Origin: Desulfobacterales bacterium HSG2
Lineage (GTDB): Bacteria > Desulfobacterota > Desulfobacteria > Desulfobacterales > 4be13
NCBI GenBank assembly: GCA_030378035.1
Contig: JAUCGI010000003.1
Span: 1 to 64,000, forward strand
Reading direction: 5' to 3'
Length of the DNA stretch: 64,000 nucleotides
A model generated the notes under the pieces. It saw nothing but the letters and a program-made list of their open reading frames with translations. It was not told where the DNA came from and did not search any database. Positions 23,502 through 49,725 of this stretch are shown here, piece after piece; positions within the stretch are counted from its first letter, which is position 1, and each line of letters opens with the position of its first letter. A program made the translations under genes and the position numbers.

Positions 23502-24000
23502 TTATCCATGGTGTGCGTCTCCTCCCAATGCCCGGCCGATTTCCAGATTGTACATTCTGGCAAACTGATCCGCAATCCTGTTCGGAGACAGGGCAGGATA
23601 AGTCTCCGAGCTGCTCAGACTGACGGAATCCCTCTCATTTTTGGAAAGCGAATAAAACCTCAGCGAATGATTTCCGCGCCGGAGTTCAAACTCTTTGAGC
23701 AGCACATAACTGTGGGTCGCGATGAAAATCTGGGCACCCATCTGTTCCAGTTCCATCAGCACACTGACGACCAGGGGAATCATGGACGGATTCAGATTCA
23801 CCTCGGGTTCGTCCCAGCAGAGAAGCGATTTTCCATCCAAGGAGCCGTTTTCAATCAGGAGCCGGAGAAGGGCGAGCTTGCGTATGCCCTCCGCGACCAG
23901 GGTGAACTCGATGTCACCGGTTCTGCTTTTCAGGTAAAATTCCTCATTTTTGGCCGTGATTTCTCCTCCCTTTTTCCAGCATTTCAATGTTATTGATCAT
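23502..24000 (-). pseudogene. RecF-like ATPase copy with a large internal deletion
   Basis: The first codons (MINNIE from ATG 24000) and the C-terminal half (GGEITAKNEEFYLKSRTGD to the end) match the intact gene at 40264-41253 almost base for base. Codons about 7-175, including Walker A, have been removed, leaving the frame broken. Upstream DNA (GTAAACTCCATGTTTATAAG) also matches the upstream DNA of the intact copy. Walker B (LLCWDEPEVNLNP) persists in the open frame from 23987, but the protein would lack nucleotide binding. Confidence 0.85.
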
Positions 24001-24196
24001 CTTAGTCTGTAAACTCCATGTTTATAAGTGAAACGCTGATAGCATGAATAAAAATGATTGTCAAACCCTTTAAAAAAAAATCATTCCCGCAAAACTTTTA
24101 AGTGTCATTCCATCAAAACTTTTAAGTGTCATTCCCGTGGAAGCGGGGATCCGCTGATGCAGTCATTTTTTTTGTTTGGCAATAGTATTAATGCTG
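24001..24196. repeat. dRS3-like repeats in the gap downstream of the first ATPase gene
   Basis: Repeated TTAAGTGTCATTCC units (about 24095-24140) lead into a degenerate palindrome related to ATTCCC...GGGAAT at 24131-24152. The same units occur at 35960-36050 and 41955-42045 within the island. No gene is seen here. Confidence 0.6.
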
Positions 24197-25975
24197 TTAT
24201 GTCGAACCCTCAGTAAGCAAATCCTGCAAACTGCCCCGCGAACCCACCTGAAATTCTTCGTAAGCATAATCGTTTTCCGAAATGTCCAAGCTGTTGCAAA
24301 TCCCGCGATAAATTTCCTCTATCGAGCGTTTCTGCTCGCACATGTTTTTAATCTGATCCTGCGGAAAAGGCTTATTATCCGTACTATTCATGTTCGACCA
24401 TTCCACGCTCTGAAATGTCCATTTCTTTAACCGATATTTACACCGGGCAAAATCTTTGTCCGCACCTTTGACCACAACATAAAGATTATCGGCAAGTTCT
24501 GCTTCGGCGGTATAATCGAGATCAGGATTTGTATAAGTTATTGTCGCATGAACGGGCAATAAGAGAACTTTTTCAATGTGCGGAAGATTCCAGAGTTGTT
24601 GAATAACTGTAAACGTGTTTTCAATTTCAACTCTGTAAACCGGGCTTTTCGGATCATCATGGGACATGGGATTCAGGACAAGGGTTTTGTAAAGTTTTAT
24701 CCCTTCCTGCACCTCTGCCGGCAAAGGTTCGCTGCAATCTTCAAAAAACCTTTCAAGGTTGTTGATTAGGGTTTCAAGACGGGTAATGTCCGTTGTGCCA
24801 AAATCTTTGTTCTGAGAGGTCTTATATGCTGCCGGCAAGAGCTTTTTGATCTGCCTTTCCAGTTCTTTCCTCAGATAATTGGCGCACGCGGGATAATCTT
24901 TGATCCTGAAATAATCTTCCGCTTTCTCAAAATACGTTTTTAAAGGATCAACAATTAAAGGAACTTCAAACCTGTTCCCGTCAATCTCTGCCATAGAGGC
25001 ATACATCTCAATTGCCTTCCAATGCTCGCCTTCAAAATAGTCGCGCATCAGCTCAAACCAGGTTCTGTCATAAGTGGTCAGAAAAATTTGAAAGTCGGCA
25101 AACTTCTCCTTCAGAATCCGTAAAAGCGGGATCCGGTTCGACATATCCAGTCCGATGAAAATATCATCGAGAAAGAGAATTTTGTACTCTACTGGTGGTT
25201 CGGGCCTGCTTATCAGAATGGATGCCAAGTAAACAGAGATTGCCAAGGCCGACAGCCGCGCCTCATTCAGAATATTCAGATGTTTAATATCCGGATGGCC
25301 AAAATAATCCACTTTGAAATGAACGGCATCCCCTGAAAACGTCTGTCCTTCCACCGCCAGCGTCGGGGCAATCAGTTCCGCGTGAATATCATGGTTGAAG
25401 CAGTCCAATAAGGATTGCAGCTTTTCATTTAGCTCGCGAAAGATATCTGCCACGCCGTTATTGAAATTATCAAGTTTTTCTGCTTCATCCGTTAGCTGGG
25501 CGGATGCTTTGAGTTCTTCCCAATCCTTTTTCAACGGATTCGTGGTGATCGGGTTCTGATGATCCTGCAAAATCGTGCTGACCAATAATTCAAAAAATTG
25601 TTCCTCGAACTGATTCGGTTCAATCAGATAGGTTTTCAGGAGCTCCTTGTATGATAAAAAAGAGTGCAGTTTATTCGTATCTTCCACAAATGTAGGCTGT
25701 TGGATGGAATCCTTGGCAAGTGTAAGTTCTTCAACCGTTCCATCGTCAGCCTTGAACTCGATTTTGATAAACGTCTTTCTTTCATCAGCCTTCAAATGAT
25801 GGTGAATATTATGAGAGGAATTAAAAAAATCGGCCAGACCGAAATAGAGTGACGATTTCCCACTCCCATTTTCACCATAGACCAAAAGATTCTCACCTTT
25901 TGGCAAGGAAATCACGGATTCTTCATAAAAGGCCCGATAGGCCTTCAAAGTGATCCTGGTTATTTGTTTGCTCAT
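24197..25975 (-). CDS. RecF/SMC-like ATPase 1, paired with methyltransferase 1
   Basis: 592 residues. Walker A is YGENGSGKSS (residues 33-42); a long helical region of about 100-200 follows. The signature-like segment LNEARLSALAISVYLA precedes Walker B KILFLDDIFIGLDMS near residue 265, followed by the H-loop-like IFLTTYDRTWFE. This puts it in the ABC-type RecF/DndD group, without a visible nuclease domain. It starts 9 bases after the stop of methyltransferase 1. A homologue (29832-31622) sits at the same place relative to methyltransferase 2, with very similar Walker B blocks and divergent C-termini. An ATPase coupled to a modification enzyme suggests DNA sensing or restriction control; that is inference. 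Confidence 0.8.
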   Translation of the reverse strand: MSKQITRITLKAYRAFYEESVISLPKGENLLVYGENGSGKSSLYFGLADFFNSSHNIHHHLKADERKTFIKIEFKADDGTVEELTLAKDSIQQPTFVEDTNKLHSFLSYKELLKTYLIEPNQFEEQFFELLVSTILQDHQNPITTNPLKKDWEELKASAQLTDEAEKLDNFNNGVADIFRELNEKLQSLLDCFNHDIHAELIAPTLAVEGQTFSGDAVHFKVDYFGHPDIKHLNILNEARLSALAISVYLASILISRPEPPVEYKILFLDDIFIGLDMSNRIPLLRILKEKFADFQIFLTTYDRTWFELMRDYFEGEHWKAIEMYASMAEIDGNRFEVPLIVDPLKTYFEKAEDYFRIKDYPACANYLRKELERQIKKLLPAAYKTSQNKDFGTTDITRLETLINNLERFFEDCSEPLPAEVQEGIKLYKTLVLNPMSHDDPKSPVYRVEIENTFTVIQQLWNLPHIEKVLLLPVHATITYTNPDLDYTAEAELADNLYVVVKGADKDFARCKYRLKKWTFQSVEWSNMNSTDNKPFPQDQIKNMCEQKRSIEEIYRGICNSLDISENDYAYEEFQVGSRGSLQDLLTEGST

Positions 25976-25984
25976 AAGCTCTCC

Positions 25985-28900
25985 TTAAAATTTGACTATT
26001 TGTTCAAGCATACCGATTTCCGGAACAGAATCTATAAAAAAAACCGAACCGCGAATCGGATGATCCTGCCTGTAAAATTCGGTAAATATCTCGGACACAC
26101 AGCGCATTTTATCTGACTGAGCCGAAAGGTCCGGCAGATTTTTCAGGTATTTGCCAAAGGCCCGTATTGACTTGCTGACGCTTTCCGGCAGGTATAATTC
26201 ATAGCTCAGTCCGTCTATGACATGTCCGAAAAAGAACGGCATCACTTTTTCCCTGCTGGTGGTCAGAGGCTGCTGTTTCAAAAACAGAATATAATCAACC
26301 AGACGGATAAACGGCTCCTGCTCAGATGGCGGAATTTTTTTGATCGGGATCCTTTCCACAAAGATTTTTTTATACTCAAGATACCCTCTTTCACGGGTAT
26401 GTCCGATTTGACGCATATAATAACTTGATATTTTCGAGTTCAGCACGGCAAGGAGATATTTGATCTCATCCGGATTCTCCGGCGGATTCCGGAATGTCAG
26501 GAAATTGGACGGGGCCGTAAGATAAAAATGCTCGGTATCAAGAGCGAATCTCGCCTGGGTCGCCAAATCTCCCCAGATAATTTTCGGCTTTTCAAATTCC
26601 TCCGAATAACCGCAATCGTGCAAACTGATCCAATCCTCTCCTTTGCCCGGACGTGTTTCAAGTTTTTCCCGGAATTGTCCGAGCCACTCATGAATGGCAG
26701 GATAATCTTTCTTAAGATTAATGGGAGGAACATCTTTCTCCTTTAAGCCATTATGCACATTGATCAGCCACATATCTTGAGATTCCGCTTTCCATTTTTG
26801 GATGTCCTTTCCTGTCAGGACCGGTTTGAGAAGTTCCGCATTTCGGGGATCCGCTTTGACAAGTCTCTCCCTGGTCTCCCTGTCAATAACGAAGGCTTCA
26901 TCATACCCTATTGCGATCCCCTGACAAATCTTAACATTCCACTCTTTTAAGGGAATTCCCTGCTTCTCGATTCGGGGTGTGATATCAAACATGTCTTTTG
27001 TACTTACCAACCAAGTCCCTCTCCGAGGCAACACCATCTGATAACTGTGGGTATGAACATACTCGGCAAGAGGCACCGAGGGATCAAAGTCATTGGAAAT
27101 CCGGCATAAGCGCATCTGTTTCGGATATCGCTTCTGTTCCGGATTCGCGGGTTCTTGTAGGAACAGGATATTGGTATATATGGCTGTGTAAAAAATCCGC
27201 ACATTGCCGAAATCAACCAAAAGCAGAGGCATTGTCTGTTCCGAGAAAAATTCCCGGAGCTTTGTGCCTTGGTCTGCCCGCATCCATTGATCAAATGTGA
27301 TAAAACACAACAGGCCGGACGGGGCCAGGAGTCGATGCCCTTTTTCATAAAACAGATAATAAATGTCTCCCATCCGGTCATAGCTCTGATACTGTTGTCT
27401 TTCCAACCTTACCTGCTGAAGACCGTAGAACTTATGCATCTGGATATATGGCGGTTCCCCGATCACAATATCAAACCCGCCCCTTATTCCGAACATCCAC
27501 TCCGGATCAAACCATTCGCAGGATTCGCCTGAAAACGGATTCCACGCGTCAAGCCGCAATGCTTCAGAACTTCCGACCGCTTTCCGTTCAGGCAGGCGCT
27601 TTGTCATGCGTTTCCGCATTTCCGCAAATTCTTTTCTCACAGCTACTTTTTCTTCACCATAACTCAGAAAATAGGCCGTATGCAGTTCTCTCAGTTTCGC
27701 AATTTCATCCTGAGATTCAAAAATACCCATATCTCCTTTTGGCAGATCGATAAGCGTATCCGCGCACACAAATTTGAACTCCAAGTTCGGCAAAGGCAAA
27801 ATTCCCCGGTTGCCCTCGGGATCATCATCAGCGACCTTTTCATCTGCGATCAGTGACAGAAAAAACCTCAGCTTTGACATTTCAATGGCGATTGGCTGAA
27901 TATCCGAGCCATGGATGCTGTTGCGGATGACGCTGAGTTTTCTTGTGTAATTCCGTAAATCTTTTTCCCCTTCGAGTTTTCTTCTCATCATCTTCCGTGT
28001 GGCCGGATCAGGGATGTCCGCAAGCAGTTTTTTCAGGCATTTTTCAGCATCCGGGTCGGTTTTTTGCAGAATCAGAATCATCTTCTGCAAGACACCCATG
28101 GGAAACGCGGCGGAACCGCAGGCAGGGTCAAGGATTTTCAGATGTTCCAGCGCATCGGTAACTTTCTCTTTTTCCGCGTCGGTCAGCTCTGTCTCTGTAT
28201 CCTGATATGAAATCAGCCTGATGATTTTGTTTTCATCAATCCCTGTCTTTGTGAGAAGATACTGTTTCAGGCTTTCGTCTGCCATGTATTCTGTTATCTC
28301 TCTCGGGAGATAATAACTTCCCGAGTTTCTTTTCGCAGTCTGCTCGGTTTCCGGTCTGATCTCGGCCAGGAGATTTTCAAAAATTCTGCCGAGCATTTCA
28401 GGCTCAACGGCAATTTCGGTTTCAGCCGGCGTGTTTTCTTTTATGGTAAAATGATAATGCTCAAAAATTCCGAGCAGTTCCTTACACCATTCATCAGGTA
28501 TTTTCAATGTGTTCAGATAAACAGACGGATTCGGTTCATTCAGGTGATAAAAATCATGCGGACGCGGTTCAAAAAGCCCGCCGTTCAGAAACGGAATCAG
28601 ATCCCATTCATCGCTACGCAGCTCGGGGGGGCGTTCATATTTTTTTCTGTTCAGGACTTCAAAAAACAAAGGTTCGAGAACAGAATGATAATATCCGTGA
28701 GCCAGGGGTTCGGTAACCGCTTTTTCAGACAGGATATTATCCGAAATCAGGGGGATGTTTGCCCGCGAGGTTTTCTTTTTCAGAAATTGGCAAAACAGCA
28801 GCCTTCCGATCAGCCGCGCTGCGAATTCCTTTCTCACTGTGTCATCGGGCTTCCCGGGCAATTCAAGCATGCCTTTCTCAGTCATCATTTCCGAACCGAT

Positions 28901-29629
28901 CTTTCTCCGGCCGCCGACAAGTTTTGTGAACATCTCTGCGATAGCATTGTAAAAATTCTTACTTAAAACAGAGATATCCAGGATTTTCATCCAAGCATCA
29001 TGCAGCTCGACAAAAGTTGTTACCGTTCGCTTTTTTCTTAATTCTCCGAGACTCAGATCATAAAGAATCTCAATATGCGCCCGGTGCGGATCCGCTATCC
29101 GAACATCTTTGATAAGCATCACTTTCTCAGGCACATCCTTGCTCTCGTCACTTTTGTGCAGTCTTCTTCTGATGACTGAAAGCGTCAGATACCCGCCATA
29201 CCTGAAAAGCACCATCACCGGCATGGGAAAAACCCGGTTCATCTGCCGGGTAATATCTGAAAGTTCTGTTCTGCTGTAAGCCTCGCCTTTCAGTTCAATG
29301 GCAAAGAACAGGTATGCCTCAGTGACGGTGCTGTCAACTTTTTTGGTGTCAGAAAGCATCTCCTGATCCGTCATCTCGGCATCTGACAACCGGAAAAGCA
29401 GTTCAGTCCCTTTCCATTCCGCTGTCAGAGCCTTCTGCTCAAATTTTCCGATATCAGGGATGCTGTCGTTCTCCTTTAGATAATTCTCGGAGAACTCCTG
29501 ATATGTGGGATCGTCAAGCCTGTTCTGCCGATCTGTGTCATATCCGAGGGTCTGAAAAAGACGGATTGCCGCGTCAAAAAGATCGTCCTGACCAAAATTA
29601 CGGATTGCGTTTTGAATTTTTTGTTTCAT
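25985..29629 (-). CDS. Eco57I-type DNA methyltransferase homologue 1 with altered catalytic motifs
   Basis: About 1,214 residues; the start at 29629 is chosen by comparison with its paralogues (MKQKIQNAIRNF). The first ~230 residues match the three paralogues closely and contain FFAIELKGEAYSR. The methyltransferase core is recognisable, but three motifs differ: motif X region SYYLPRE instead of YYTPRE/A (about residue 440), motif I DPACGSAAF instead of CGSGAF (about 505), and motif IV VIGEPPY instead of NPPY (about 725). The asparagine of NPPY contacts the target adenine in N6-adenine enzymes, so methylation is probably lost. The 1,200-codon frame is nevertheless intact. It may now be a DNA-recognition scaffold for the ATPase encoded next, or a gene in early decay. 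Confidence 0.85.
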   Translation of the reverse strand: MKQKIQNAIRNFGQDDLFDAAIRLFQTLGYDTDRQNRLDDPTYQEFSENYLKENDSIPDIGKFEQKALTAEWKGTELLFRLSDAEMTDQEMLSDTKKVDSTVTEAYLFFAIELKGEAYSRTELSDITRQMNRVFPMPVMVLFRYGGYLTLSVIRRRLHKSDESKDVPEKVMLIKDVRIADPHRAHIEILYDLSLGELRKKRTVTTFVELHDAWMKILDISVLSKNFYNAIAEMFTKLVGGRRKIGSEMMTEKGMLELPGKPDDTVRKEFAARLIGRLLFCQFLKKKTSRANIPLISDNILSEKAVTEPLAHGYYHSVLEPLFFEVLNRKKYERPPELRSDEWDLIPFLNGGLFEPRPHDFYHLNEPNPSVYLNTLKIPDEWCKELLGIFEHYHFTIKENTPAETEIAVEPEMLGRIFENLLAEIRPETEQTAKRNSGSYYLPREITEYMADESLKQYLLTKTGIDENKIIRLISYQDTETELTDAEKEKVTDALEHLKILDPACGSAAFPMGVLQKMILILQKTDPDAEKCLKKLLADIPDPATRKMMRRKLEGEKDLRNYTRKLSVIRNSIHGSDIQPIAIEMSKLRFFLSLIADEKVADDDPEGNRGILPLPNLEFKFVCADTLIDLPKGDMGIFESQDEIAKLRELHTAYFLSYGEEKVAVRKEFAEMRKRMTKRLPERKAVGSSEALRLDAWNPFSGESCEWFDPEWMFGIRGGFDIVIGEPPYIQMHKFYGLQQVRLERQQYQSYDRMGDIYYLFYEKGHRLLAPSGLLCFITFDQWMRADQGTKLREFFSEQTMPLLLVDFGNVRIFYTAIYTNILFLQEPANPEQKRYPKQMRLCRISNDFDPSVPLAEYVHTHSYQMVLPRRGTWLVSTKDMFDITPRIEKQGIPLKEWNVKICQGIAIGYDEAFVIDRETRERLVKADPRNAELLKPVLTGKDIQKWKAESQDMWLINVHNGLKEKDVPPINLKKDYPAIHEWLGQFREKLETRPGKGEDWISLHDCGYSEEFEKPKIIWGDLATQARFALDTEHFYLTAPSNFLTFRNPPENPDEIKYLLAVLNSKISSYYMRQIGHTRERGYLEYKKIFVERIPIKKIPPSEQEPFIRLVDYILFLKQQPLTTSREKVMPFFFGHVIDGLSYELYLPESVSKSIRAFGKYLKNLPDLSAQSDKMRCVSEIFTEFYRQDHPIRGSVFFIDSVPEIGMLEQIVKF

Positions 29630-29652
29630 CATTTCCATCCTTTCATGTCCCT

Positions 29653-29701
29653 CCTCACAGGACATTGCTTTAAACTCTCATTCTTTCAGTACCTTACTCA
29701 T
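29653..29701 (-). pseudogene. Remnant of the PD-(D/E)xK-like gene with internal deletion
   Basis: GGAGGAGGCAATGAGTAAGG and the next codons match the start of the gene at 39705-40271 (MSKVLKE). They join directly to DNA matching its last third (ending near CAATGTCCTGTGAGGA). The whole middle, including the putative active site, is missing. It lies immediately upstream of methyltransferase 1, exactly where the intact gene precedes methyltransferase 3. Confidence 0.75.
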
Positions 29702-29726
29702 TGCCTCCTCCCAATCTGTCTGTTTT

Positions 29727-29831
29727 TCAAATGCGGATCCTTTCGGGCTGCCTGTTCAGACAGTCATTAAGATATTCTTCAATGGTCTCTGTTTTTTCAA
29801 TGAGTTTCTCAAACGATTCATTTTGAGGAAT
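29727..29831 (-). other. In-frame open extension after the stop of ATPase 2
   Basis: After the TAA at 29832-29834 the same frame continues open for 34 codons (NESFEKLIEKTETIEEYLND and onward) to TGA 29727-29729. The amphipathic, charge-rich sequence looks like real protein. It may be the original C-terminus of the ATPase severed by a nonsense mutation, or part of a lost downstream gene. No start codon with a ribosome-binding site is seen. Confidence 0.35.
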
Positions 29832-31622
29832 TTACACCGCATCCGCCATTTCTTTCAAGGTTTTTCCTGTAGTTTCAGAACGGAATTCCGCATAAATATC
29901 TGCTTTCTCTGAAGCGTGTTTTTCTCCGTACATGTTATGGCTAATCATATCATACGCTTTATTTAAATCACATTCTGGAATATGGCTCAAATCCTCCCGA
30001 TGATCATTTTCAATATAATACAATGGTCGTAATTCGCATTTAGGGATTTTCCAATTATTTCCTTGTTTCAAGACAAGCACATTACCATTGACTTTTAAAA
30101 CGGTTTTTCTCTTCGCACCTTTCATCGCGCCAGTTGTGTGAGTTTTTTCAATAAAAAGTAATTCATTTTCAGATAATAATACAGATTTTTTCAAGGCTCG
30201 CAACGCGTCTGCCACTCTGAACGCTTCTTTTAATTCGTTTTTGTAAATCGGTTTCTCAAGATTGTCATGCGAGAAAGGATTTAATGTTGTCTTAATGATG
30301 ATGTCAATATCTTTGAAGGGTGTCCAATCCAGTTCCAGGTCATCTGTCATCTTTTTAAACATATCTTTCAATTCGCCTAACTCCTTTCTGACTAAAGTCT
30401 CTCCATTTTCTCCTTTCCTGAACCGATAGTTACCGAACAGCTTTTCTTTGAGTAACCGTTCATATTCTTTTCTCAAATAGTTCGCAGCAGCAGGATAATC
30501 AATGTTGGTTGCGTCTCCTCCAGACTTTTTGTGGAAATACTTTTCTGCCTTTGTATAGTAATCATCAGAAGGTGCGATGATAATCGGAAATTCAAAATCA
30601 AGTTCGTCTTTTTGTCCGACATACATTTCAATAGCCTGCCAACCTGTCTTTAAATGGAGTTTGGCAATTTCAAACCAATGCCGATCATAAGTGGTCAGAA
30701 AAATTTGAAAATCGGCAAAGTTCTCTTTCAGAATCTGCAAGAGCGGAATCCGGTTCGACATATCCAGTCCGATGAAAATATCGTCAAGAAACAGCATCTT
30801 ATAATTCGCTGGTTCTGGAATAATTTTCAACGAAGATAGGTACATACACAGCGCGAGTGCGGAGAGGCGAGCCTCATTCAAAAATTCTTCATATCTGCCT
30901 GTGATACTCGCGCCAAAGTATGTTGATGTGATCTTGATTTCTTTATCTGCCAAGAATTTTTTGTTGCCTGCGCCCTTAATGGTGAGGGTCGGTTTTTCAA
31001 AGCCAAGGGTCACATGATGATTAAAATACCGATTCAGCCAAACATTTGTTTTTTCAGCTAACTCTTCCAAAAATGACTCCAGACCATCATTGAAGCTCGG
31101 CAAGGTTGTCTTAATCACCTGTTTATACTTCTTAGTATTGGCACTCATTTGTAACGCATCATTAATGTCAGCCCAATCTTCTCCGAATTTTCGCTCGCTT
31201 TTGTCATTCGTATGGTAGGGTAAAATGGTTTCAACCAGGATAGAAAACACATCCGGGCGTTTTGCCTCATTTTCAGCCAAATAGGCGCGTAACAGGCGTT
31301 TGTATGTAAAGAACGGATTATGGCAATGCGTGTCGATCAGAAAGTTCGGAGTCGGTGCGGGTAATGTGCTGTCATTTTGATAGACAAAGGTCTGATCAGT
31401 ATCCATGATGACTTTGACATAGGGGGAACTGTCGTCAAATATGTTTGCCGCAACGGATTTTGACTGATTCGCTGCCGCAAAGAAATCTTCCATGGCTTTA
31501 TACAATGAGCTTTTACCGCTCCCGTTTTCGCCGTAAATCAGCATGCTTTTTCCTTCGACTGAAATGGTATGTGTGCGGTAAAAAGCACGGTAGTTATGCA
31601 GTTCGATGGTTCTGATTTTCAT
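29832..31622 (-). CDS. RecF/SMC-like ATPase 2, paired with methyltransferase 2
   Basis: 596 residues, homologous to the ATPase at 24197-25975. Walker A is GENGSGKSSL (31-40), the signature-like block FLNEARLSALALCMYLSS, Walker B KMLFLDDIFIGLDMS (near 277) and H-loop-like FLTTYDRHWFE. Between Walker B and the end the two ATPases diverge strongly, and this gene looks richer in A+T than its neighbours. Its start overlaps the methyltransferase 2 stop by four bases (ATGA), so the two products are made together. Function is inferred as an ATP-dependent sensor or effector working with the methyltransferase; no nuclease motif is clear. Confidence 0.8.
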   Translation of the reverse strand: MKIRTIELHNYRAFYRTHTISVEGKSMLIYGENGSGKSSLYKAMEDFFAAANQSKSVAANIFDDSSPYVKVIMDTDQTFVYQNDSTLPAPTPNFLIDTHCHNPFFTYKRLLRAYLAENEAKRPDVFSILVETILPYHTNDKSERKFGEDWADINDALQMSANTKKYKQVIKTTLPSFNDGLESFLEELAEKTNVWLNRYFNHHVTLGFEKPTLTIKGAGNKKFLADKEIKITSTYFGASITGRYEEFLNEARLSALALCMYLSSLKIIPEPANYKMLFLDDIFIGLDMSNRIPLLQILKENFADFQIFLTTYDRHWFEIAKLHLKTGWQAIEMYVGQKDELDFEFPIIIAPSDDYYTKAEKYFHKKSGGDATNIDYPAAANYLRKEYERLLKEKLFGNYRFRKGENGETLVRKELGELKDMFKKMTDDLELDWTPFKDIDIIIKTTLNPFSHDNLEKPIYKNELKEAFRVADALRALKKSVLLSENELLFIEKTHTTGAMKGAKRKTVLKVNGNVLVLKQGNNWKIPKCELRPLYYIENDHREDLSHIPECDLNKAYDMISHNMYGEKHASEKADIYAEFRSETTGKTLKEMADAV

Positions 31623-35278: not shown

Positions 35279-35371
35279 TATTCAAGCCTTTCCTGTTTGG
35301 CGGCTATCAGGTGCTCAAAGTGGTGCTTTGGGCAGCAATCGCCTGTGTATTAAGATCTCCTCAAAAAAAAT

Positions 35372-35917: not shown

Positions 35918-35944
35918 AATCATACCAACTTGAATGCCTGTCAT

Positions 35945-36060
35945 CTCAGCAGAGCTTTTAACTCTCTTTTAACTGTCATTCCCGCAAAACTTCTAACTGT
36001 CATTCCCGCAAAACTTCTAACTGTCATTCCCGCGAAAGCGGGAATCCACTGATGCAGTCA
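35945..36060. repeat. dRS3-like palindrome with tandem lead-in units (copy A)
   Basis: Two CATTCCCGCAAAACTTCTAA units precede the palindrome ATTCCCGCGAAAGCGGGAAT (36026-36045). The block lies between the TOPRIM gene and the end of methyltransferase 3. It is nearly identical to 41937-42052. Palindromes of this ATTCCC-N8-GGGAAT kind are widespread repeats in other bacteria (for example dRS3 of Neisseria). Confidence 0.85.
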
Positions 36061-36069
36061 TTCGGAATT

Positions 36070-41253: not shown

Positions 41254-41363
41254 CGTCTGTAAATTCCATGTTTATAAGTGAAACACTTGATGCCATAAAT
41301 AAAAATGATTGTCAACTCTAAAATTATTCCCGCAAAACATTTAAGTGTCATTTCAGCCGACTG

Positions 41364-41909: not shown

Positions 41910-41936
41910 AATCATACCAACTTGAATGCCTGTCAT

Positions 41937-42052
41937 CTCAGCAGAGCTTTTAACTCTCTTTTAACTGTCATTCCCGCAAAACTTCTAACTGTCATTCCCG
42001 CAAAACTTCTAACTGTCATTCCCGCGAAAGCGGGAATCCACTGATGCAGTCA
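41937..42052. repeat. dRS3-like palindrome with tandem lead-in units (copy B)
   Basis: Near-identical copy of 35945-36060, with the palindrome at 42018-42037, between TOPRIM copy B and the end of methyltransferase 4. The shared sequence runs from the TOPRIM gene through this repeat into the last ~45 codons of the methyltransferase, marking one duplicated block. Confidence 0.85.
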
Positions 42053-42061
42053 TTCGGGACT

Positions 42062-45000
42062 TTAATTTCCGGTTTTCTTTTTGGCAATATTATCAATGCG
42101 TTTTGCATTGTATTCCTTTTCGGAGATGATTTTTTCTATATCAGGATCGACGATTCTCACCTCTTCGTAGGTGAGGTCGTAGAGTTTATAGACGATGAGG
42201 TCTATTTTTCTTTCAAGCAAGGTAGTGTCAGCATCAGAGTTTCTATTTTTGATGCTGAGGATATTATCGACAATCGTTTCAACAGGCTTCGTTTTTTTGG
42301 TAGTGGGAATTGGGAAATTCTTCATAAACACAGCACTCGGTTCATAGTAACCATTTTGAAGCTTTGCCAACAATTTCTCAAAAAGCCACATGACAACACT
42401 TGAATTTAACACACCAAGCAGATATTTTGACGCGCCCGGAATGATAAAAGCTTTTTGGTTTGTATAGTAATTGTCTTCATCCCAAGTAAATTCATTGCGT
42501 TTACAGATATTTGGATAGATAATCTTTGGCTGCTCAAATTCTTGCCAATACGCAATGTTATCCTGAATCTCAAACCATTTATAGCTACCGGCTTTCCGAC
42601 CATTTTTGCCATCCGGAGTGAGTCGTTCCTTATATTGATACAGATGCTTATGAATTGCAGGATAGTTTTTAATATTAGTTCCACGCCTTGTAAATATAAT
42701 CCATAAATCCTGTGGGGCCAAGCACCATCTTTTTACGTCCCGTCCTCGCAAAAAAGGTTTCAAAACCTCTTCGGAAGACGAGTCCTCATCAATCAATCGC
42801 TCCTTTGTTACACTGTCCACGATAAAAGCTTTGTTGAAACCAGTTACAATGCCACGATAGAATCTTCCATTTACATATTCCCCTAACGGCTTTCCCACCT
42901 TACGCAATTTTTCAAGCAGATTTAAAACAGAATGTGGTTCAAATCGCCAGGCATCCGCACTAAGTTTATTTTGCGGAACATAAAAACCGTCTTTCAGGAA
43001 AATTTCAGGGAATGCTTCTATCGGATTACCAAGTTCCCAATTCAGGGCGCGGATATTTGACGGTCCGGCTTTGGCGGATTTTTCAAAGATAATGATACTC
43101 GGATAGGCAATAGCCGTAAAAACGGGCGCATCACCAAAATCAATAAGCTGACGGATACAAACGCTGTTCCTTAAAAATTCCCGCAGTTTCTTTCCATAAG
43201 CTGCCCGAAAATATTTGTTGGAAGAAATAAATGAAAGAATACCTCCCGGTTTGAGAGAATTAAAACCTCGCTCATAAAAGAAGACATACAAATCAGAGGT
43301 TCCTGTATAACACTTGTATTGTTTTAGCAAGATCGGCTTGAGATGTTTGATTTTTTCATGCCGCACATACGGCGGATTCCCGATCACAATATCAAACCCA
43401 TCCCTTATCCCGAACATCCATTCCGGATCAAAGAACTCCGCAGAGGCGTTCTGGTCATAAAGGTCCCATTTGGCCAGTTTCTTAGTCGTATCTGTGGAAA
43501 ACCCCTTTTTAGCGAGCTGTCTGCTGATCTCCTTTCTCAGCCGTTTATCTTCCGCCATACACCGCTTCTTGGTATCTCTTGTCCGCGCGTTGAAATACCG
43601 TTCCCGAACCGTTTTCAGATCGTCCTCCATACTGAAAAGTTTGGTGTCCTTCAGGCCCGTCTGGCCTGATTCCTCAATGCCGATAAGGGTGTTCGCGGCG
43701 ATAAACCGTGTCTCGAGATTCGGCAGCGGCAGTATCCCGATATTCTCTTTTTCCTCATCTGTTTTCTGGTCCACCACTAAGGAGATAAAGAAACGGAGTT
43801 TGGCAATCTGCACCGCGACAGACTGGATATCCACGCCGAAGATGCAGTTCTGAATCAGATAGAGCTTGCGCGCATAATCGAGTTCGTTGTTACCGAAAAT
43901 CTCATCGATGTTCTCAAGCCTCTCATTCAGCTCACGGACCGCCTTGTCCCTGGCCCTGTCATCATTTATCCGCTCCGCCGTCTCTATGTCCTGATTTATC
44001 TTCCGGGTCTCATTTTCAATCTGCCATTCTTTCCACCGGGCATTCACCGGGTCGGTTTTGCGGAGGATATGGAGCATCTTATGGAGGATACCCATGGGGA
44101 ACGCTCCGGAACCGCAGGCCGGATCGAGTATTTTCAGTTGATGGAGCGCGGCGATCAGCGCCTCGGTCTCCTCCTCGATGAAACGATGATCTTCTTCTGT
44201 GTAACTCAGAAGATGACGCAGTTTCCCGTTAATCTCCTTCTTTTCCGCATCTGAGAGCCGCTTCGGAGAAGGGGCGATCTCCGCCCGAACCGGCTTCTGT
44301 GTCCCGAACAATCTTCCCCGGGAAGCCCCTTTCCTCAGAACAAAACCGGCTCTGCCCTCATAAAAATCAGTCAGCCTGTTCTCCAAATACGCGATCAGGG
44401 ACTCATCCGCCATGTAACTGACGATCTCACGGGGTGTGTAAAAAGAGCCGGTCTGCTTGCGTGCTGTGGTCCCGGTCTCCGGATTGTAGCTGGCCAGCAG
44501 ATTCTCAAAGGCCCGTCCCAGTAGTTCCGGGTCCAGAGCGATCTCCTCCTCCACCGGCGTGTTCTCCGCAACGGTGAACTTGTAGCGTTTCAGCAGGTCG
44601 ATCAGCCCGCGGACCTGATATTTCCTGTTCCGGGTTCCGTAGTCCCTGTTCAGATCCTCGGACCGGCTTTCGGAGAAGAACAGAAAGTTGGGGAGATGGA
44701 GCCTGTTGTCCTTCCGGTCTGAAAACCCGTCAATCCTGGTCACGGGTTTCTCGCTGTCAAGACACTCGAACAGGCCCCCGTTCAGAAAAGGCGTCTTTTC
44801 AAGAAGTTTCAGAATCTTGTTCGGTGTGCGGAAACAACTCCGGTACCGGTAACAGTTGTGCATCATGTAACTCTTGTTCTTATCCTGATATCGCTTCTCA
44901 GTCCTGAATTCTCTGCTCTTCATCGGGGTGTTCAGGGTGGCGAAAAAGAGATTCTGGAGAATCGCTCTGTAATAGGTCCCGCTTTCGGGAGAGAAATCCC

Positions 45001-45886
45001 TCAGAAGCTTCCCCAGTTTCGGCTCGTCGAAAATATCCTCGGGTATCAGTCCCTTTTCCCTGATGAACCATACGAAAATCAGGCGGGTGATCAGACGGAT
45101 CACATTCACAGGGTTCCGGGTTTCCTCACTCATGTCATTCTGAGAGGGAAAGACCGCGTGTTTCAGAGCCCAGAAATACCAGTCGGCAAGTTCCCTGTAA
45201 AACTTTTTATTCAGTTCCGAGCAGTCCAGCACCTTCTGCCACGCGTTATGCAGCGCGACAAAGTTTGTGACGGTGTATGTTTTCCTTAACGAATCCAAAC
45301 CCAGATCAGCCAGTATTTCAATATGCGCCCGGTGCGGATCCGCTATTCGGATATCTTTGATAAGCGTCACTTTTTCAAGCACATCCCTGCTCTCGTCTCT
45401 TTTGTGCAGTCTTCTTTTGATGACCGAAAGCGTCAGATACCCGCCATACCTGAAAAGAATCATAACCGGTATGGAAAAAACCCGGTTCATCTGCCGGGTG
45501 ATATCCGAAAGTTTTGTTCTGCTGTAAGCCGTTCCCTTCAGTTCAATGGCAAAAAGCAGGTATGCTTCAAAGATGGTGTTGTCAACTTTTTTGGTATCAA
45601 AAAGCATCCCCTGATCCGTCATCTCGGATTCTGTCAACTGGAAAAGCAGTTCAACGCCTTTCCATTCCGCTGTCAGAGCCTTCTGCCCAAATTTTCCGAT
45701 ATCAGGGATTCTGTCGTTCTCCTCCTCCAGATAACTCTCAGAGAACTCCTGATATGTGGGATGATCAAGCCTGTTCTGCCGCTCTGTGTCATATCCGAGG
45801 GTCTGAAAAAGACGGATTGCCGCGTCAAAAAGATCATCCTGGCCAAAATTGCGGATTGCGTTTTGAATTTTTTGTTTCATATTCAT
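42062..45886 (-). CDS. Eco57I-type DNA methyltransferase 4 (probable N6-adenine)
   Basis: 1,274 residues, the longest of the four. Motifs are SFYTPREIVSYM, LDPACGSGAF and VIGNPPYVRHEK. An extra segment of about 50 residues (FVLRKGASRGRLFGTQKPVR...) lies between motif X and motif I. The middle lineage matches methyltransferase 3, while the recognition region (NYPAIHKHLYQYKERLTPDG, WYEIQD-like, GVLNSSVVMWLFEKLLAKLQ) differs and resembles other COG1002 enzymes. The gene begins 29 bases after the stop of the PLD-SNF2 helicase, so the two are very likely co-expressed. A helicase plus a large adenine methyltransferase recalls DISARM- or BREX-type modules, but no DrmA, DrmB, PglZ or BrxC is present. 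Confidence 0.88.
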   Translation of the reverse strand: MNMKQKIQNAIRNFGQDDLFDAAIRLFQTLGYDTERQNRLDHPTYQEFSESYLEEENDRIPDIGKFGQKALTAEWKGVELLFQLTESEMTDQGMLFDTKKVDNTIFEAYLLFAIELKGTAYSRTKLSDITRQMNRVFSIPVMILFRYGGYLTLSVIKRRLHKRDESRDVLEKVTLIKDIRIADPHRAHIEILADLGLDSLRKTYTVTNFVALHNAWQKVLDCSELNKKFYRELADWYFWALKHAVFPSQNDMSEETRNPVNVIRLITRLIFVWFIREKGLIPEDIFDEPKLGKLLRDFSPESGTYYRAILQNLFFATLNTPMKSREFRTEKRYQDKNKSYMMHNCYRYRSCFRTPNKILKLLEKTPFLNGGLFECLDSEKPVTRIDGFSDRKDNRLHLPNFLFFSESRSEDLNRDYGTRNRKYQVRGLIDLLKRYKFTVAENTPVEEEIALDPELLGRAFENLLASYNPETGTTARKQTGSFYTPREIVSYMADESLIAYLENRLTDFYEGRAGFVLRKGASRGRLFGTQKPVRAEIAPSPKRLSDAEKKEINGKLRHLLSYTEEDHRFIEEETEALIAALHQLKILDPACGSGAFPMGILHKMLHILRKTDPVNARWKEWQIENETRKINQDIETAERINDDRARDKAVRELNERLENIDEIFGNNELDYARKLYLIQNCIFGVDIQSVAVQIAKLRFFISLVVDQKTDEEKENIGILPLPNLETRFIAANTLIGIEESGQTGLKDTKLFSMEDDLKTVRERYFNARTRDTKKRCMAEDKRLRKEISRQLAKKGFSTDTTKKLAKWDLYDQNASAEFFDPEWMFGIRDGFDIVIGNPPYVRHEKIKHLKPILLKQYKCYTGTSDLYVFFYERGFNSLKPGGILSFISSNKYFRAAYGKKLREFLRNSVCIRQLIDFGDAPVFTAIAYPSIIIFEKSAKAGPSNIRALNWELGNPIEAFPEIFLKDGFYVPQNKLSADAWRFEPHSVLNLLEKLRKVGKPLGEYVNGRFYRGIVTGFNKAFIVDSVTKERLIDEDSSSEEVLKPFLRGRDVKRWCLAPQDLWIIFTRRGTNIKNYPAIHKHLYQYKERLTPDGKNGRKAGSYKWFEIQDNIAYWQEFEQPKIIYPNICKRNEFTWDEDNYYTNQKAFIIPGASKYLLGVLNSSVVMWLFEKLLAKLQNGYYEPSAVFMKNFPIPTTKKTKPVETIVDNILSIKNRNSDADTTLLERKIDLIVYKLYDLTYEEVRIVDPDIEKIISEKEYNAKRIDNIAKKKTGN

Positions 45887-45915
45887 CTTATATATCTTCC
45901 ATACACCTCAGAAAA

Positions 45916-48900
45916 CTACTTGATCACCAGCCAACTGATCAGTTCAAACTGATCACTTTTCTCAGGCCGCTCTGATTTGGGAATGATCCCGCCTCTGCCC
46001 CTGAGCAGTTTTCTGTTCACCTGTTTTTTAAACACCGACCTTATTTCACTGATCGCCCTACTCAACAACAGATTGTATTCCCGCATCTCAGAACCACTCT
46101 TTGTCTCTTTGTCAAACAGATCGCATAATTCATCATAAGGCGCGTCAACCCCGTTGCCCAGCAGCCTGAAAATCTCAAGTATCTGTTTGGCATGGGTATA
46201 ATTGAAACGAACCGTGCCATCTCTCCTGACATAGACCAGAAAATAAGGCGACAAAGGATTCACAGTCTCGTTTCCCCCGGTATCCCCTTTCTGTCTCAGG
46301 CAGAAAATGACCCCGGGCCGGATAATATCCTTCGCGCTGTCGCTCATATCGCCGATCTCAGAAGACCTGAAAAATTCACTCCCGGGCGAGGGAACCACCG
46401 CATAAAGTCCCAAAGGAGCATTCTGAAGTTTCTCCCGATTCTTCTCAATATAATTGGCCAGTTCCACCCTGAAATCATCCAGAGTGAACTCACTCAGAGA
46501 AATATTCTCATCAATCTCCTCCAAGTCAAGAACTTCCTTTTTCAGCCGCTTCAACTGCCTGTTTCTGAAATTCAGATCATCCTCTATCAGACCCCGTATC
46601 TGGTCTTTTCTGAGCAGATTATCCTGACCGGTTGCGGTAATATCGACCAGGGCCATTCTTGCTTCCACCCGGTCTTTCAGATTGATATAATTGTTCAGAT
46701 CATCCGTGGGCCAGAAGTTCACCAACTGAATCTTTTTGTTCCTGCTCCCGAGCCGGTCAATCCGTCCGAATCTCTGGATAATCCTGACCGGGTTCCAGTG
46801 AATGTCGTAGTTGATCAGATAGTCGCAATCCTGAAGATTCTGCCCCTCGGAAATACAATCCGTGGCAATGAGAATGGAGATTTCCTCATCCTGGGGCATC
46901 TCCTTTATCTTGTCCCTGTTTTTGGAGATCGGCGAAAAATTCGTGAGAATATGCTCAAACCGGGTTTTGCCCAGGGTGGTCCTGTTCGTGCCGCTGCCGG
47001 AGACCAGTGCGATGTGCAGGTTCAGCTCCTCTGTGGCAAAAGGGAGGAGATTCTCATGCAGATAGTTTGCCGTGTCTGTAAATGCCGTGAAGACAATCAC
47101 TTTCTGATTTCCGTCATTGATCGGTTTTTCAGTCTTCTCTCTGATCAGGGACTTCAGCACCCCGAGCTTCTCATCCCTGTCCGGCGTAACCGCTTTTGCC
47201 GAGTTTTTAAGCAGAACCAGCGCGTCTTTGTCGCTTTTCAGATCCTTCAGCCAGAGGTCCAAATCCAGATGGGCAAGATCATATTTCAGCTTCTTGCCGA
47301 TACTGTTCGCGTCATTCAGTTCTGTGTCGTCCTCATCATATATCTCAGGCGATTCAATCTCCGGGGAATCCGACACAGCCGCTTTGTACGCCCTGATTCG
47401 ATCCTGCAACCCTGTGATTTTTTCCATGGTTCTTTCCATGGATGTTTCAAAAGACTCAATGGAGCTTTCAAGTCTTTTCAGAAAATTCACCTTCATCATG
47501 CCGATGAGAAAATGCTCCCTGTTCTCCTGCGAAAAGGCAATAACCGTTTTTCCCGCTTTCTTTTCATAAAAACTTTTCCACTCATCCCTGACATACGCCC
47601 AGGGATTGAACAGGGAGAGTTTGTAAGTCATAATCTCCCTGTTTATCCCGTCATAAGAGGGAAATTCATCTTTTGTGTCAATATCCGGTGCTCTTGAAAT
47701 CACCGGCAGCCTTTTCGGAAACGCGCCGATACGCTCCATCTCCTCCTTATAATAGGTCTGGATGTGCTTTCTGGAACGGGCAATGGTCAGCTCGTCAAGC
47801 AGTTTGAAAAAAGAGGAATCGAGTTTTTCAAGGAGCTTTTTCACATCCCGTGTCCCGTTCTTTTTGGGATCTGCCCAGCGGGTAAATGTCTTCTGAGCCT
47901 CTTTCATTGTCTGTGCGAGATGTTTTACGTCTGTTTTGTCATAAAACGCATCCTCTTTTCCGCCGGAGATGAAATAGAGCTGGTTCCTCAGATCTTTAAG
48001 GTCATTGTTCACCGGCGTTGCGGAGAGCAGAAGCACTTTTGTCCGAACACCGGAATTGATAATATCCGCCATCAGCTTCTCATATCTGCTTTTCCTTATG
48101 ATATGACCTTCTTCATCTCTCTTGCCTCTGGTGTTGTTTCTGAAATTGTGCGACTCATCTATGACCACAAGATCATAATTGCCCCAGTTGATTGCTCCGA
48201 GGTCAATGTTGCTGACGGAACGGCCGGAGTCTCTGCTCAGATCCGTGTGACTGAGAACGGTATAACCGAGTCTGTCATCAATTAGCGGATTCAGCAGGCT
48301 GTTATTCTGAGCCTGAAACACGGTCCAGTTGTCACTCAGTTTTTTCGGGCAGAGCACCAGAACCCTGTTATTGAGCAGTTCAAAATATTTTATCACGGCC
48401 AGTGCCTCAAAGGTCTTGCCAAGTCCCACACTGTCCGCAAGCACACACCCGTTGTGCCTGAGAATCTTGTTTATCGCGCCCTTCACAGCATCCTTTTGAA
48501 ATGCGTATAGCATATTCCAGACTTTTGTGTCAAAAAAGCCGGTGTTTTCATCAAGAAGTCCGCCCCGCCGCTGCTCTGACAGGAACTTCTCAAAAAGATG
48601 ATAAAGCGTCTTAAAATAAATGAATTCGGGATCGTTCTCCGCGTAGAGCTGTTCAAGGTATCGGAGAACATCCGCTTTGACATCCTTCACCAGATGATTG
48701 TCTTCCCATATTTCCTCAAACCAGTTTAACAGGTCTGCCCTGTCTCTGTCATCGGTGACCTCCATGTTCAGTTCAATATTCGGATTTCCGCCCAGCCCGA
48801 GACCTCTCACGGTGAAATTCGAGCTGCCAAGTATGGCTTTCTGATTGCCGTTGTTGCTGATATGATACATTTTGCCGTGGAGAAAATTCGACTTTGCCAC

Positions 48901-49245
48901 GGATCTGATATTCACCCTGGCTTCTATCCAGTCACTGCATTCTTTTGCAACGGATTTTTGCCGGAGCCTGCTATGAAGCGGAATCACCAACTGGTCATCT
49001 TCGATTTCAAATTCTTTCCTGTCTGTTTTTGAAGGATCAAGAGAACGGATAAAAGCCGGTTCGCCAAACAGAAAATTGAGGGATTCGATATTGTTCAGCT
49101 TGTCTTTCAGGTGCTGATATGCATAAATCGTGAAATAGGCTGATACCACAGAAAGCCTGCTCCCCTCATCAATCTGCTGTTTTAAAAATTTCCCGACACT
49201 TCCTCTTTTATGATTGTCTTTGATTGAAGAAGGTATGAGAGTCAT
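45916..49245 (-). CDS. PLD-domain SNF2-type helicase
   Basis: About 1,109 residues from ATG 49245, with AAAGG upstream. The N-terminal phospholipase-D-like domain shows FLHGKMYHI (H123-x-K125) and GSSNFT, one HKD-type active site that would pair as a dimer. The helicase part has Walker A ADSVGLGKTF (near 273), DEAH-box VVIDESHNF (near 365), LLSATPVNN (near 408) and motif VI QRFGRIDRLGS (near 828), the SNF2 superfamily 2 set. C-terminal helices are long and charged. Helicases with N-terminal PLD nucleases occur in several phage-defence systems, where they travel on and cut DNA. It is upstream of methyltransferase 4. Confidence 0.88.
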   Translation of the reverse strand: MTLIPSSIKDNHKRGSVGKFLKQQIDEGSRLSVVSAYFTIYAYQHLKDKLNNIESLNFLFGEPAFIRSLDPSKTDRKEFEIEDDQLVIPLHSRLRQKSVAKECSDWIEARVNIRSVAKSNFLHGKMYHISNNGNQKAILGSSNFTVRGLGLGGNPNIELNMEVTDDRDRADLLNWFEEIWEDNHLVKDVKADVLRYLEQLYAENDPEFIYFKTLYHLFEKFLSEQRRGGLLDENTGFFDTKVWNMLYAFQKDAVKGAINKILRHNGCVLADSVGLGKTFEALAVIKYFELLNNRVLVLCPKKLSDNWTVFQAQNNSLLNPLIDDRLGYTVLSHTDLSRDSGRSVSNIDLGAINWGNYDLVVIDESHNFRNNTRGKRDEEGHIIRKSRYEKLMADIINSGVRTKVLLLSATPVNNDLKDLRNQLYFISGGKEDAFYDKTDVKHLAQTMKEAQKTFTRWADPKKNGTRDVKKLLEKLDSSFFKLLDELTIARSRKHIQTYYKEEMERIGAFPKRLPVISRAPDIDTKDEFPSYDGINREIMTYKLSLFNPWAYVRDEWKSFYEKKAGKTVIAFSQENREHFLIGMMKVNFLKRLESSIESFETSMERTMEKITGLQDRIRAYKAAVSDSPEIESPEIYDEDDTELNDANSIGKKLKYDLAHLDLDLWLKDLKSDKDALVLLKNSAKAVTPDRDEKLGVLKSLIREKTEKPINDGNQKVIVFTAFTDTANYLHENLLPFATEELNLHIALVSGSGTNRTTLGKTRFEHILTNFSPISKNRDKIKEMPQDEEISILIATDCISEGQNLQDCDYLINYDIHWNPVRIIQRFGRIDRLGSRNKKIQLVNFWPTDDLNNYINLKDRVEARMALVDITATGQDNLLRKDQIRGLIEDDLNFRNRQLKRLKKEVLDLEEIDENISLSEFTLDDFRVELANYIEKNREKLQNAPLGLYAVVPSPGSEFFRSSEIGDMSDSAKDIIRPGVIFCLRQKGDTGGNETVNPLSPYFLVYVRRDGTVRFNYTHAKQILEIFRLLGNGVDAPYDELCDLFDKETKSGSEMREYNLLLSRAISEIRSVFKKQVNRKLLRGRGGIIPKSERPEKSDQFELISWLVIK

Positions 49246-49269
49246 GTTTTTTTCCTTTCTCATTTTTAA

Positions 49270-49725
49270 TCATCCCGAAGCCGCGAGCAATTCCACAGAG
49301 TCCTCAACATATTCTTCCACATCGCAATGATCCGATTGAAATTGGCTGAGAATTTTCAGGATCCGTTCAGAGACAACCAGCATATTGTCATCTGATATGC
49401 CGAAGTCGTCAGCGCCTGCCTCCCCGTGTACTTTCAGCCACCGGAATTTCGGAATATTCCTTCCCGCATGCAAATCGGCGAACTGCTTTGATTTTGTAAT
49501 TTTAACATTGCCGAAGTCACATCCGGAGAGGCCCAGTTTTCCAAGTTCAGGCATGAGGCGTTCTGTGACAATATAACACGGAAACGATTCCAGCAAATCG
49601 TCACCCAGCCATCCGTCCAACTCGTAATGCAGTTTATGAACGCAGGGGGGATGAACTGTCGCATCCATCTCTGTGTCAGACCCCGGACCTCCGGCCACTT
49701 CAGGTTCTAAGATGTAGAATCTCAT
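49270..49725 (-). CDS. Hypothetical protein, possibly immunity-like
   Basis: 151 residues (MRFYILEPEVAGG..., LHYELDGWLGDDLLESFPCY, KFRWLKVHGEAGADDFGISD) with no signal or membrane segment. The overall plan resembles small proteins that act as immunity factors in contact-dependent toxin systems, but I cannot name a family with confidence. It is the first intact gene at the upstream end of the defence island and is followed by the helicase with a 24-base gap. A fragment of a second copy lies at 21948-22020, again beside a HicB-like gene. Confidence 0.55.
   Translation of the reverse strand: MRFYILEPEVAGGPGSDTEMDATVHPPCVHKLHYELDGWLGDDLLESFPCYIVTERLMPELGKLGLSGCDFGNVKITKSKQFADLHAGRNIPKFRWLKVHGEAGADDFGISDDNMLVVSERILKILSQFQSDHCDVEEYVEDSVELLAASG

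Follow-up and report, generated by a model that had tools for sequence, protein, structure and literature searches.

A defence island of Desulfobacterales bacterium HSG2 with four methyltransferases whose shared N-terminal domain type follows an upstream HKD-SNF2 helicase

Introduction

Type I restriction-modification (RM) systems use one ATP-dependent motor-nuclease (HsdR) in common for exchangeable HsdS/M components, with a separable specificity that changes by exchange of target recognition domains (TRDs). The nuclease of another ATP-dependent enzyme, SauUSI, is of the PLD/HKD type. SauUSI is an ATP-dependent translocating endonuclease with a helicase-like ATPase, and is a methyl-directed Type IV enzyme with its own TRD in the same chain (PMC7913695). 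BREX-related (BR) Type-2 systems combine an HKD and Swi2/Snf2 helicase with an N6-methyltransferase and are defined around a DUF499 ATPase and DUF3780 (PMC12839542), HmaB of the Hma system is a 5-methylcytosine (m5C) methyltransferase (PMC8565338), and PrrC and RloC are ABC-HEPN anticodon nucleases that act as guards beside RM systems (PMC3710099). Here we describe a 25.75 kb island of Desulfobacterales bacterium HSG2, situated in a window (the whole stretch of DNA analysed) of 64,000 nucleotides on contig JAUCGI010000003.1 (assembly GCA_030378035.1). Its array comprises four N6-adenine-type methyltransferases (MT1 to MT4), two RecF/Rad50-like ATPases (AT1 and AT2), one HEC-02 pair and one helicase with an HKD(PLD)-nuclease domain (HEL), and its reality is far beyond chance.

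The array did not correspond to DISARM, BREX, BR Type-2 or Hma. An earlier note, made from the letters of the window, had stated that the DISARM and BREX cores are absent, and this was borne out: the NCBIfam matches of 10 array proteins included none of DrmA, DrmB, PglZ and BrxC, and PglX models reached at most 80 bits against cut-offs of 400-900. HEL scored 161 bits with the NCBIfam model of DrmD (cut-off 610), and a partial PADLOC match of its residues 684-849 to DrmA (E 1e-21) was read as generic superfamily 2 (SF2). With BR Type-2 the island has the HKD and Swi2/Snf2 helicase with an N6-methyltransferase in common, but the DUF499 ATPase and DUF3780 were unmatched in the 11 array proteins scanned by Pfam, all but T2 (PMC12839542). 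Hma was likewise rejected, as MT1-4 are of Eco57I type, MT2-4 with NPPY, in contrast to the m5C methyltransferase HmaB (PMC8565338).

Results

Covariation of the helicase and the methyltransferase N-terminus

Forty-four loci with a full-length methyltransferase and HEL, 43 of them with the N-terminus, were compared by pairwise identity (loci and genomes are numbered with L and G). HEL identity correlated with that of methyltransferase residues 1-232 with a Spearman coefficient of 0.87 (Mantel p 0.002, the floor of 499 permutations), against 0.17 for the linker, 0.20 for the core and 0.12 for the TRD. Inside each of two helicase clades the N-terminus gave rho values of 0.91 and 0.91, and the other methyltransferase parts -0.08 to 0.25. 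Sliding windows of 40 residues showed a step near residue 225: the correlation with HEL was 0.77-0.87 up to residues 181-220, 0.66 at 201-240 and 0.17 at 221-260, and beyond this never exceeded 0.26 over the whole set, with higher single windows inside clades (0.60 at 361-400 in clade 2; 0.41 at 461-500 in clade 1). Helicase type and N-terminus type agreed in 63 of 64 rows, four of which are the window methyltransferases with one common HEL; the lone discordant row, L128, fits neither N-terminus type (0.21/0.20). On the core tree, a single clade for the 31 clade-1 rows (of 63) was rejected by the approximately unbiased (AU) test (p 1.7e-67).

A wider test, a search with MT2 minus its N-terminus, returned 17 rows in 297 genomes, six of which were fetched from genomes outside the N-terminus positives of a 395-genome search. 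All six had an HKD-SNF2 helicase directly or nearly upstream, forming two additional clades with 25-27% identity to HEL, and their methyltransferases had N-termini of two further types, for which phmmer with HMMER filters on gave no match to the window type or to each other. Among 16 representatives of the four helicase clades, N-terminus and HEL scores were both block-diagonal, with four N-terminus types, and those of the methyltransferase bodies were not. Domain swapping is evident in the clade-3 locus L168, whose methyltransferase body scored 987-994 bits with that of L116 of clade 1 versus 177-220 bits with its own clade mates. The earlier note had proposed either one multi-specificity system or a series of cassettes in which a common N-terminal domain docks interchangeable effectors; both halves were right in spirit, as there is one helicase-linked system with several probable specificities as well as a cassette series with a common N-terminal domain. 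The docking target was wrong, since the variation of the domain tracks the upstream helicase, not a set of interchangeable downstream effectors.

Recurrence of the gene pairing

Separate searches covered samples of 58, 395, 247 and 297 genomes. Of 58 relatives (own genome counted), 11 had the N-terminal domain, as did 14 of 395 phylum members searched with a profile; in these two sets, multiple matches on a single contig occurred in the own genome only. Named genomes yielded 62 loci, the best being that of Desulfonema magnum, with others in Bacteroidota, Cyanobacteriota, Elusimicrobiota, Ignavibacteriota, Planctomycetota and further groups. Dropping ten repeat loci left 75 loci with an N-terminus open reading frame (ORF). 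More than one such ORF was present only in the window and in L113 (a split gene), and the window island was the only one of the 75 with four such methyltransferases.

Upstream sequence of 3 kb or more was available for 60 loci, and in 53 of them HEL lay on the same strand and 5' of the methyltransferase; 15 loci were too short upstream for this test. An AT1/AT2-type ATPase was a downstream neighbour in 13 of 52 loci; this ATPase type occurred in only three of 247 sampled genomes, each time within an intact or decayed HEL-methyltransferase locus. In L178 (G200), decayed HEL and methyltransferase fragments adjoin the ATPase. An independent pile-up of unrelated genes, which the earlier note had allowed for if the genes showed no conserved pairing, is rejected by this recurrence. 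Co-occurrence of partners extended to HEL and the AT-type ATPase; the HEC-02 pair and the 190-amino-acid ORFs T1 and T2 had no conserved pairing in the HEL-methyltransferase loci examined, and these parts of the array therefore count as variable accessory cargo.

The N-terminal domain

The structure model of the N-terminal domain was of good quality (pLDDT 87.6, pTM 0.84). Foldseek with this model gave no match at E<=0.001, and a sequence search of solved structures gave growth hormones only, at E 0.14 or worse. The top rows in VIA were the N-terminal region of DrdV, a Type IIL enzyme, at Z 5.4 (121 residues, 4.0 A) and 5.3, a weak match with an unrelated ribosomal row tied at 5.0. IELK, the form of an active PD-(D/E)xK motif, is retained in the N-termini of all four window methyltransferases. 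The E-x-K is not family-wide: D. magnum has IRLR, clade 1 has IELS, IELA, IGL and others, and clade 2 mostly VTL or ITL. We infer that the domain may be a degenerate nuclease domain serving as an adaptor. The Pfam family DUF4391 (PF14335) matched MT3, as a whole protein, at E 9.1e-6 and 26.2 bits, below its curated cut-off of 29.9, and reached 31.2 bits with the MT3 frame including its neighbours in the genome search; matches to MT1 and MT4 were weaker than that to MT3, and MT2 was unmatched at E<=0.01.

Organization of the island

The features are listed in Table 1. All listed array genes lie on the minus strand, from 49263 down to 23502, so that the four methyltransferases point one way as the earlier note had it, in the order HEL, MT4, T2, HEC-02A, HEC-02B, MT3, T1, MT2, AT2, MT1, AT1 and the truncated HEC-02A copy. 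Overlaps of 4 bp couple HEC-02B with MT3 and MT2 with AT2.

Table 1 Features of the island, in gene order from HEL
Feature	Coordinates	Strand	Evidence and remarks
HEL, HKD(PLD)-nuclease + SNF2 helicase, 1115 aa	45916..49263	-	Pfam PLDc_2, SNF2-rel_dom, Helicase_C; PADLOC C3a139 'HKD+Snf2' E 5.7e-133
MT4, N-terminal adaptor + N6-type methyltransferase + TRD	42062..45886	-	Eco57I E 4e-41, TaqI_C; REase_MTase_IIG; core apart from MT3 and MT1/2
MT4 N-terminal putative adaptor (residues 1-225)	45212..45886	-
T2, 190-aa ORF	41364..41936	-	in 97.5% DNA duplicate (842 bp) of T1 segment
HEC-02A ATPase	40264..41253	-	PADLOC E 2.5e-103
HEC-02B	39705..40331	-	PADLOC E 8.2e-48; PD-(D/E)xK-like nuclease reading by eye only
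MT3, N-terminal adaptor + N6-type methyltransferase + TRD	36070..39708	-	Eco57I E 4e-36; orthologue of Desulfonema magnum methyltransferase residues 1-800; 4-bp overlap with HEC-02B
MT3 N-terminal putative adaptor (residues 1-225), DUF4391-like	39034..39708	-	DUF4391 E 9.1e-6
T1, 190-aa ORF	35372..35944	-	no family match
MT2, N-terminal adaptor + N6-type methyltransferase + TRD	31619..35278	-	Eco57I E 1.6e-35, TaqI_C; 4-bp overlap with AT2
MT2 N-terminal putative adaptor	34604..35278	-
AT2, ABC (Rad50/RecF-like) ATPase, C-terminal R-x3-E ... NPxSH region	29832..31622	-	SMC_N
MT1, MT2 paralogue, motif I GSAAF, motif IV GEPPY, ORF intact	25985..29665	-
MT1 N-terminal putative adaptor	28955..29632	-
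AT1, AT2 family (37% identical)	24197..25975	-	head domain matches Rad50/SMC/RecF at Z 20-23
Truncated HEC-02A copy (5'-truncated), island end	23502..23987	-	94% DNA identity to 40273-40749
Defence island, 25,750 bp	23509..49258	.	between two genes of redox operon (formate-dehydrogenase-like, by eye); empty site in G004

The insertion of 25,750 bp is delimited by an empty site in G004, a genome of the same family. There, L147 258-1239 aligns to window 22527-23508 at 88% and L147 1366-1833 to 49259-49738 at 90%; as only 126 bp separate the two stretches that match the island flanks, positions 23509-49258 are an insertion. The array is also missing from the related place in G038, a genome of the same order. 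The array had been drawn at 23502-49725 in the earlier note; its existence stands, with the bounds corrected and the 151-amino-acid ORF at 49270-49725 excluded, which is a flanking chromosomal gene kept at the empty site. A 179-bp direct repeat (91%) lies outside the island ends (22035-22211 and 49751-49929) and encodes, by eye, a HicB-like fragment; it was rejected as the island boundary because the empty site sets the ends inside the repeat pair. Within the island, an 842-bp duplication of 97.5% DNA identity (35372-36213 and 41364-42205) spans T1/T2 and the 3' ends of MT3/MT4, possibly a recent duplication or conversion, or an assembly trap. Short repeats common to the cassettes (24081-24167, 35976-36062 and 41968-42054) could drive recombination.

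HEL is predicted to be a translocating nuclease, with the motifs GLGKT, DESH and HxK...GSSN; its assignment as a PLD-SNF2 helicase in the earlier note agrees with the database matches in Table 1. The match to phrog_26785 covers the whole of HEL (E 5.6e-222), and HEL relatives exist in phage or prophage records.

MT1-4 are Eco57I/TaqI_C-type methyltransferases by Pfam, with weak MmeI_Mtase matches, and the nearest PADLOC models are those of REase_MTase_IIG. Their first 230 or so residues had been called close to identical; the N-termini are indeed shared, the wording being a little strong for the 78-88% identity over residues 1-232 in all six pairs, with 89-97% in the first 50 alignment columns only. 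MT1 and MT2 are paralogous over almost their whole length (84% DNA identity over 3.4 kb). Past the shared part, MT1/2 and MT3/4 have identities of 0.37-0.42 in the linker, 0.35-0.40 in the core and 0.18-0.31 in the TRD. The TRDs of MT1 and MT2 are 0.71 identical; neither MT3 nor MT4 has a TRD related to these, and their own two TRDs are likewise unrelated (0.21). One HEL would on this basis be served by three or more types of TRD in the four methyltransferases.

Among 66 methyltransferases examined, motif IV was NPPY in 64, GEPPY in MT1 and without a regular-expression match in L080; motif I had GSG in 61 of 62 with a match, and GSA in MT1. With both catalytic motifs changed, MT1 is probably catalytically dead. 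It does not look like an ordinary pseudogene, as its ORF is open, omega between MT1 and MT2 is 0.26-0.34 (residues 1-1140), and its departures from near-invariant core sites (15 of 75) are close to those of MT2 (13 of 75). MT1 may read DNA without modifying it, or decay may be under way.

The RecF/SMC-like ATPases that the earlier note had assigned to MT1 and MT2 were recovered with SMC_N at E 1.5e-10 and 2.6e-12, and its RecF-like partner of MT3 is HEC-02A, with HEC-02B as the neighbour; these two overlapping genes, side by side, have the membership of the PADLOC candidate system HEC-02. In the C-terminal half of 13 AT homologues the R and E of R-x3-E are invariant, and the N and H columns of NPxSH are conserved at 90% or more. 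The catalytic triad of PrrC resembles this R-x3-E...H. AT had no HEPN or C-terminal Pfam match among the families listed, and no regular HEPN Rx4-6H motif was seen by eye. The AT1 structure model was poor in the C-terminal region (pLDDT 66.9), and the whole-protein VIA run covered the ATPase head only. Among 15 ATs, five of them 85-93% alike, covariation was highest with the TRD (0.73), followed by the N-terminus (0.63) and HEL (0.49). The TOPRIM-like label once given to the 190-amino-acid ORFs found no confirmation, T1 having no match in Pfam, PADLOC, NCBIfam or PHROGs.

Origin of the array

Synonymous divergence (dS) of the N-terminus in all six pairs of MT1-4 was 0.28-0.63, and the rest of MT1/2 versus MT3/4 was saturated or >1.6. 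Because N-terminal dS is low as well, pure purifying selection is rejected as the cause of the likeness. The N-terminus tree grouped MT1-4 with D. magnum (support 97), and the core tree placed them separately as MT1/2, as MT3 with D. magnum and L024, and as MT4; both trees gave long-branch warnings, notably for the MT1/2 branch of 1.6. AU tests on the core tree rejected MT1-4 as one clade (p 0.0004) and MT3 with MT4 (p 0.0016). Together, the low N-terminal dS and the separate core placements indicate recent copying of a single adaptor type to three core lineages.

In D. magnum the methyltransferase is MT3-like over residues 1-800 (62-96% per window) and MT4-like over 801-1150 (39-95%), and the ATPase has an AT2-like N-terminal and an AT1-like C-terminal half. 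A 386-amino-acid ORF (L023 14789-15949) joins the first 39 residues of a methyltransferase to the TRD of MT2, and could be either a short protein resembling HsdS or what a deletion left behind. The locus is a collapsed and recombined array, and this single-contig genome independently backs the reality of such arrays. The island array probably grew by duplication and by copying of the resident adaptor onto methyltransferase modules of other origin, and arrays of this kind also collapse and recombine, as in the MT3/MT4 and AT2/AT1 mosaics of D. magnum.

Discussion

The island is probably an ATP-dependent RM system with one translocating nuclease, several exchangeable modification and specificity subunits, and ATPases as backup effectors. 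HEL, which has no obvious TRD of its own, would supply translocation and cleavage. Each methyltransferase has a putative N-terminal adaptor of about 225 residues that is matched to the helicase type, an N6-adenine-type methyltransferase core and a TRD. MT2-4 would methylate host sites, and a complex of methyltransferase and HEL at an unmethylated site on incoming DNA would lead HEL to translocate and cut, by analogy with Type I, Type III and ISP enzymes and SauUSI. HEL would in this way be the cutting motor for all four methyltransferases at several targets. AT1 and AT2, coupled to MT1 and MT2, may be backup guards of the PrrC/RloC type, and the HEC-02 pair another accessory cassette. The covariation suggests that HEL and adaptor dock physically. 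More tentatively, and with less confidence than in the RM system as such, we propose that a degenerate nuclease has become, in the N-terminal domain, a plug specific to the helicase, through which an otherwise self-sufficient Type IIL-like methyltransferase can serve a common HKD-SNF2 translocase as its detachable specificity subunit; this would be the rule in at least four helicase clades, and the island would be a multiplexed complex of one motor and four heads, MT1 only reading DNA.

Several observations weigh against the proposed RM system. The weak correlations of HEL with the linker, core and TRD are also above chance (Mantel p 0.002, 0.002 and 0.012), and upstream HEL was not found in seven of the 60 testable loci (L029, L082, L089, L124, L127, L128 and L110, a remnant). 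The AU tests were made on a quick tree with long-branch warnings. The TRD of the probably dead MT1 is intact, and the host would be at risk if MT1 directed HEL to sites unprotected by the other methyltransferases, unless MT2 guards the same sites. The own-genome assembly is incomplete (72.6%, 288 contigs), so that more HEL copies, or a misassembly induced by repeats such as the T1/T2 duplication, may be conceived. Adjacency could also passively keep HEL and the N-terminus together.

If passive linkage were the whole explanation, the N-terminus would stay with HEL while recombination swaps the 3' part of the operon at the boundary near residue 225, without any docking. HEL does neighbour the 5' end of the methyltransferase, and the N-terminus types share a conserved boundary region (LNKxFY..), a possible crossover site. 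Genes intervene between HEL and the methyltransferase in many loci (e.g. L121, L116, L081 and L063), including KilA-N, YhcG/DUF1016 nuclease, HSDR_N-like and Schlafen-type genes (one member of each scanned). For the KilA-N insert (eight members) the correlation is moderate with HEL (0.44, Mantel p 0.03) and reaches 0.58 with the N-terminus, the HEL-N-terminus value there being 0.79; this favours linkage and counts among the points against docking. However, the YhcG family, of whose nine members five lie between HEL and methyltransferase and four downstream, is uncorrelated with HEL (rho -0.01) while the N-terminus in the same loci stays correlated (0.84). Three of the four window methyltransferases lie 6-20 kb away from HEL, yet have its adaptor type. 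Stand-alone DUF4391 genes, present at five loci in 247 genomes (L134-L138), stand directly 3' of an HEL-family (HKD-SNF2) gene in all five, with gaps of -4 to +2 bp and HEL split in L137. Downstream of them is another RM system, which in L134, the sole case scanned, consists of a Type III-like Mod and Res. With this evidence on both sides, linkage alone strikes us as an unlikely account.

We give as little credence to four independent RM cassettes piled up at one site, with HEL serving MT4 only and the other methyltransferases being Type IIG-like or plain methyltransferases with their own ATPases. The 4-bp overlaps in the MT-AT and HEC-02B-MT3 pairs, the IELK of all four N-termini and the REase_MTase_IIG label of PADLOC speak for such cassettes, but the E-x-K is not kept in the family, the own-genome search found a single HEL for four N-termini in the 72.6% complete assembly, and all four methyltransferases received copies of one adaptor type. 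Less probable still is a decaying array with one methyltransferase in use, for which the MT1 motif changes, the truncated HEC-02A copy and the reduction of the D. magnum locus to one methyltransferase and a TRD remnant would speak. Against it, all four MT and both AT frames are open, omega between MT1 and MT2 is low, and the core-site departures of MT1 are not much more frequent than those of MT2.

If the RM system with a helicase-matched adaptor is real, a recognisable and swappable domain joins recognition to cleavage in a widespread ATP-dependent restriction class, and methyltransferase-helicase partners would be predictable from sequence alone. It would explain how specificity changes without loss of cleavage, offer a way to retarget a translocating nuclease, and give a testable role to DUF4391, which is scarcely mentioned in the literature searched. 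In the parts of that literature consulted, we found no description of helicase-N-terminus covariation or of an array of one helicase with four methyltransferases.

Comparison with known systems

The commonest simple loci of the island family have the same order of helicase, methylase and ATPase as Hma (PMC8565338). AT resembles PrrC and RloC as an ABC ATPase adjoining RM genes (PMC3710099), and differs in having no HEPN family match. SauUSI is a plausible model for the action of HEL, and differs as a Type IV enzyme with its own TRD in the chain (PMC7913695). Type IIL/IIG enzymes (MmeI, DrdV, Eco57I-like) have the same methyltransferase-TRD architecture, and the putative adaptor sits where their N-terminal nuclease does; in contrast to them, the island family is without a conserved nuclease motif and has a helicase partner in most testable loci. 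No HsdS was found in the island. The likeness to Type I systems lies in one motor-nuclease with separable specificity, whereas in the island TRD and methyltransferase are in one polypeptide, the nuclease of the motor is of the HKD type, and the kind of motor shows in the N-terminal adaptor.

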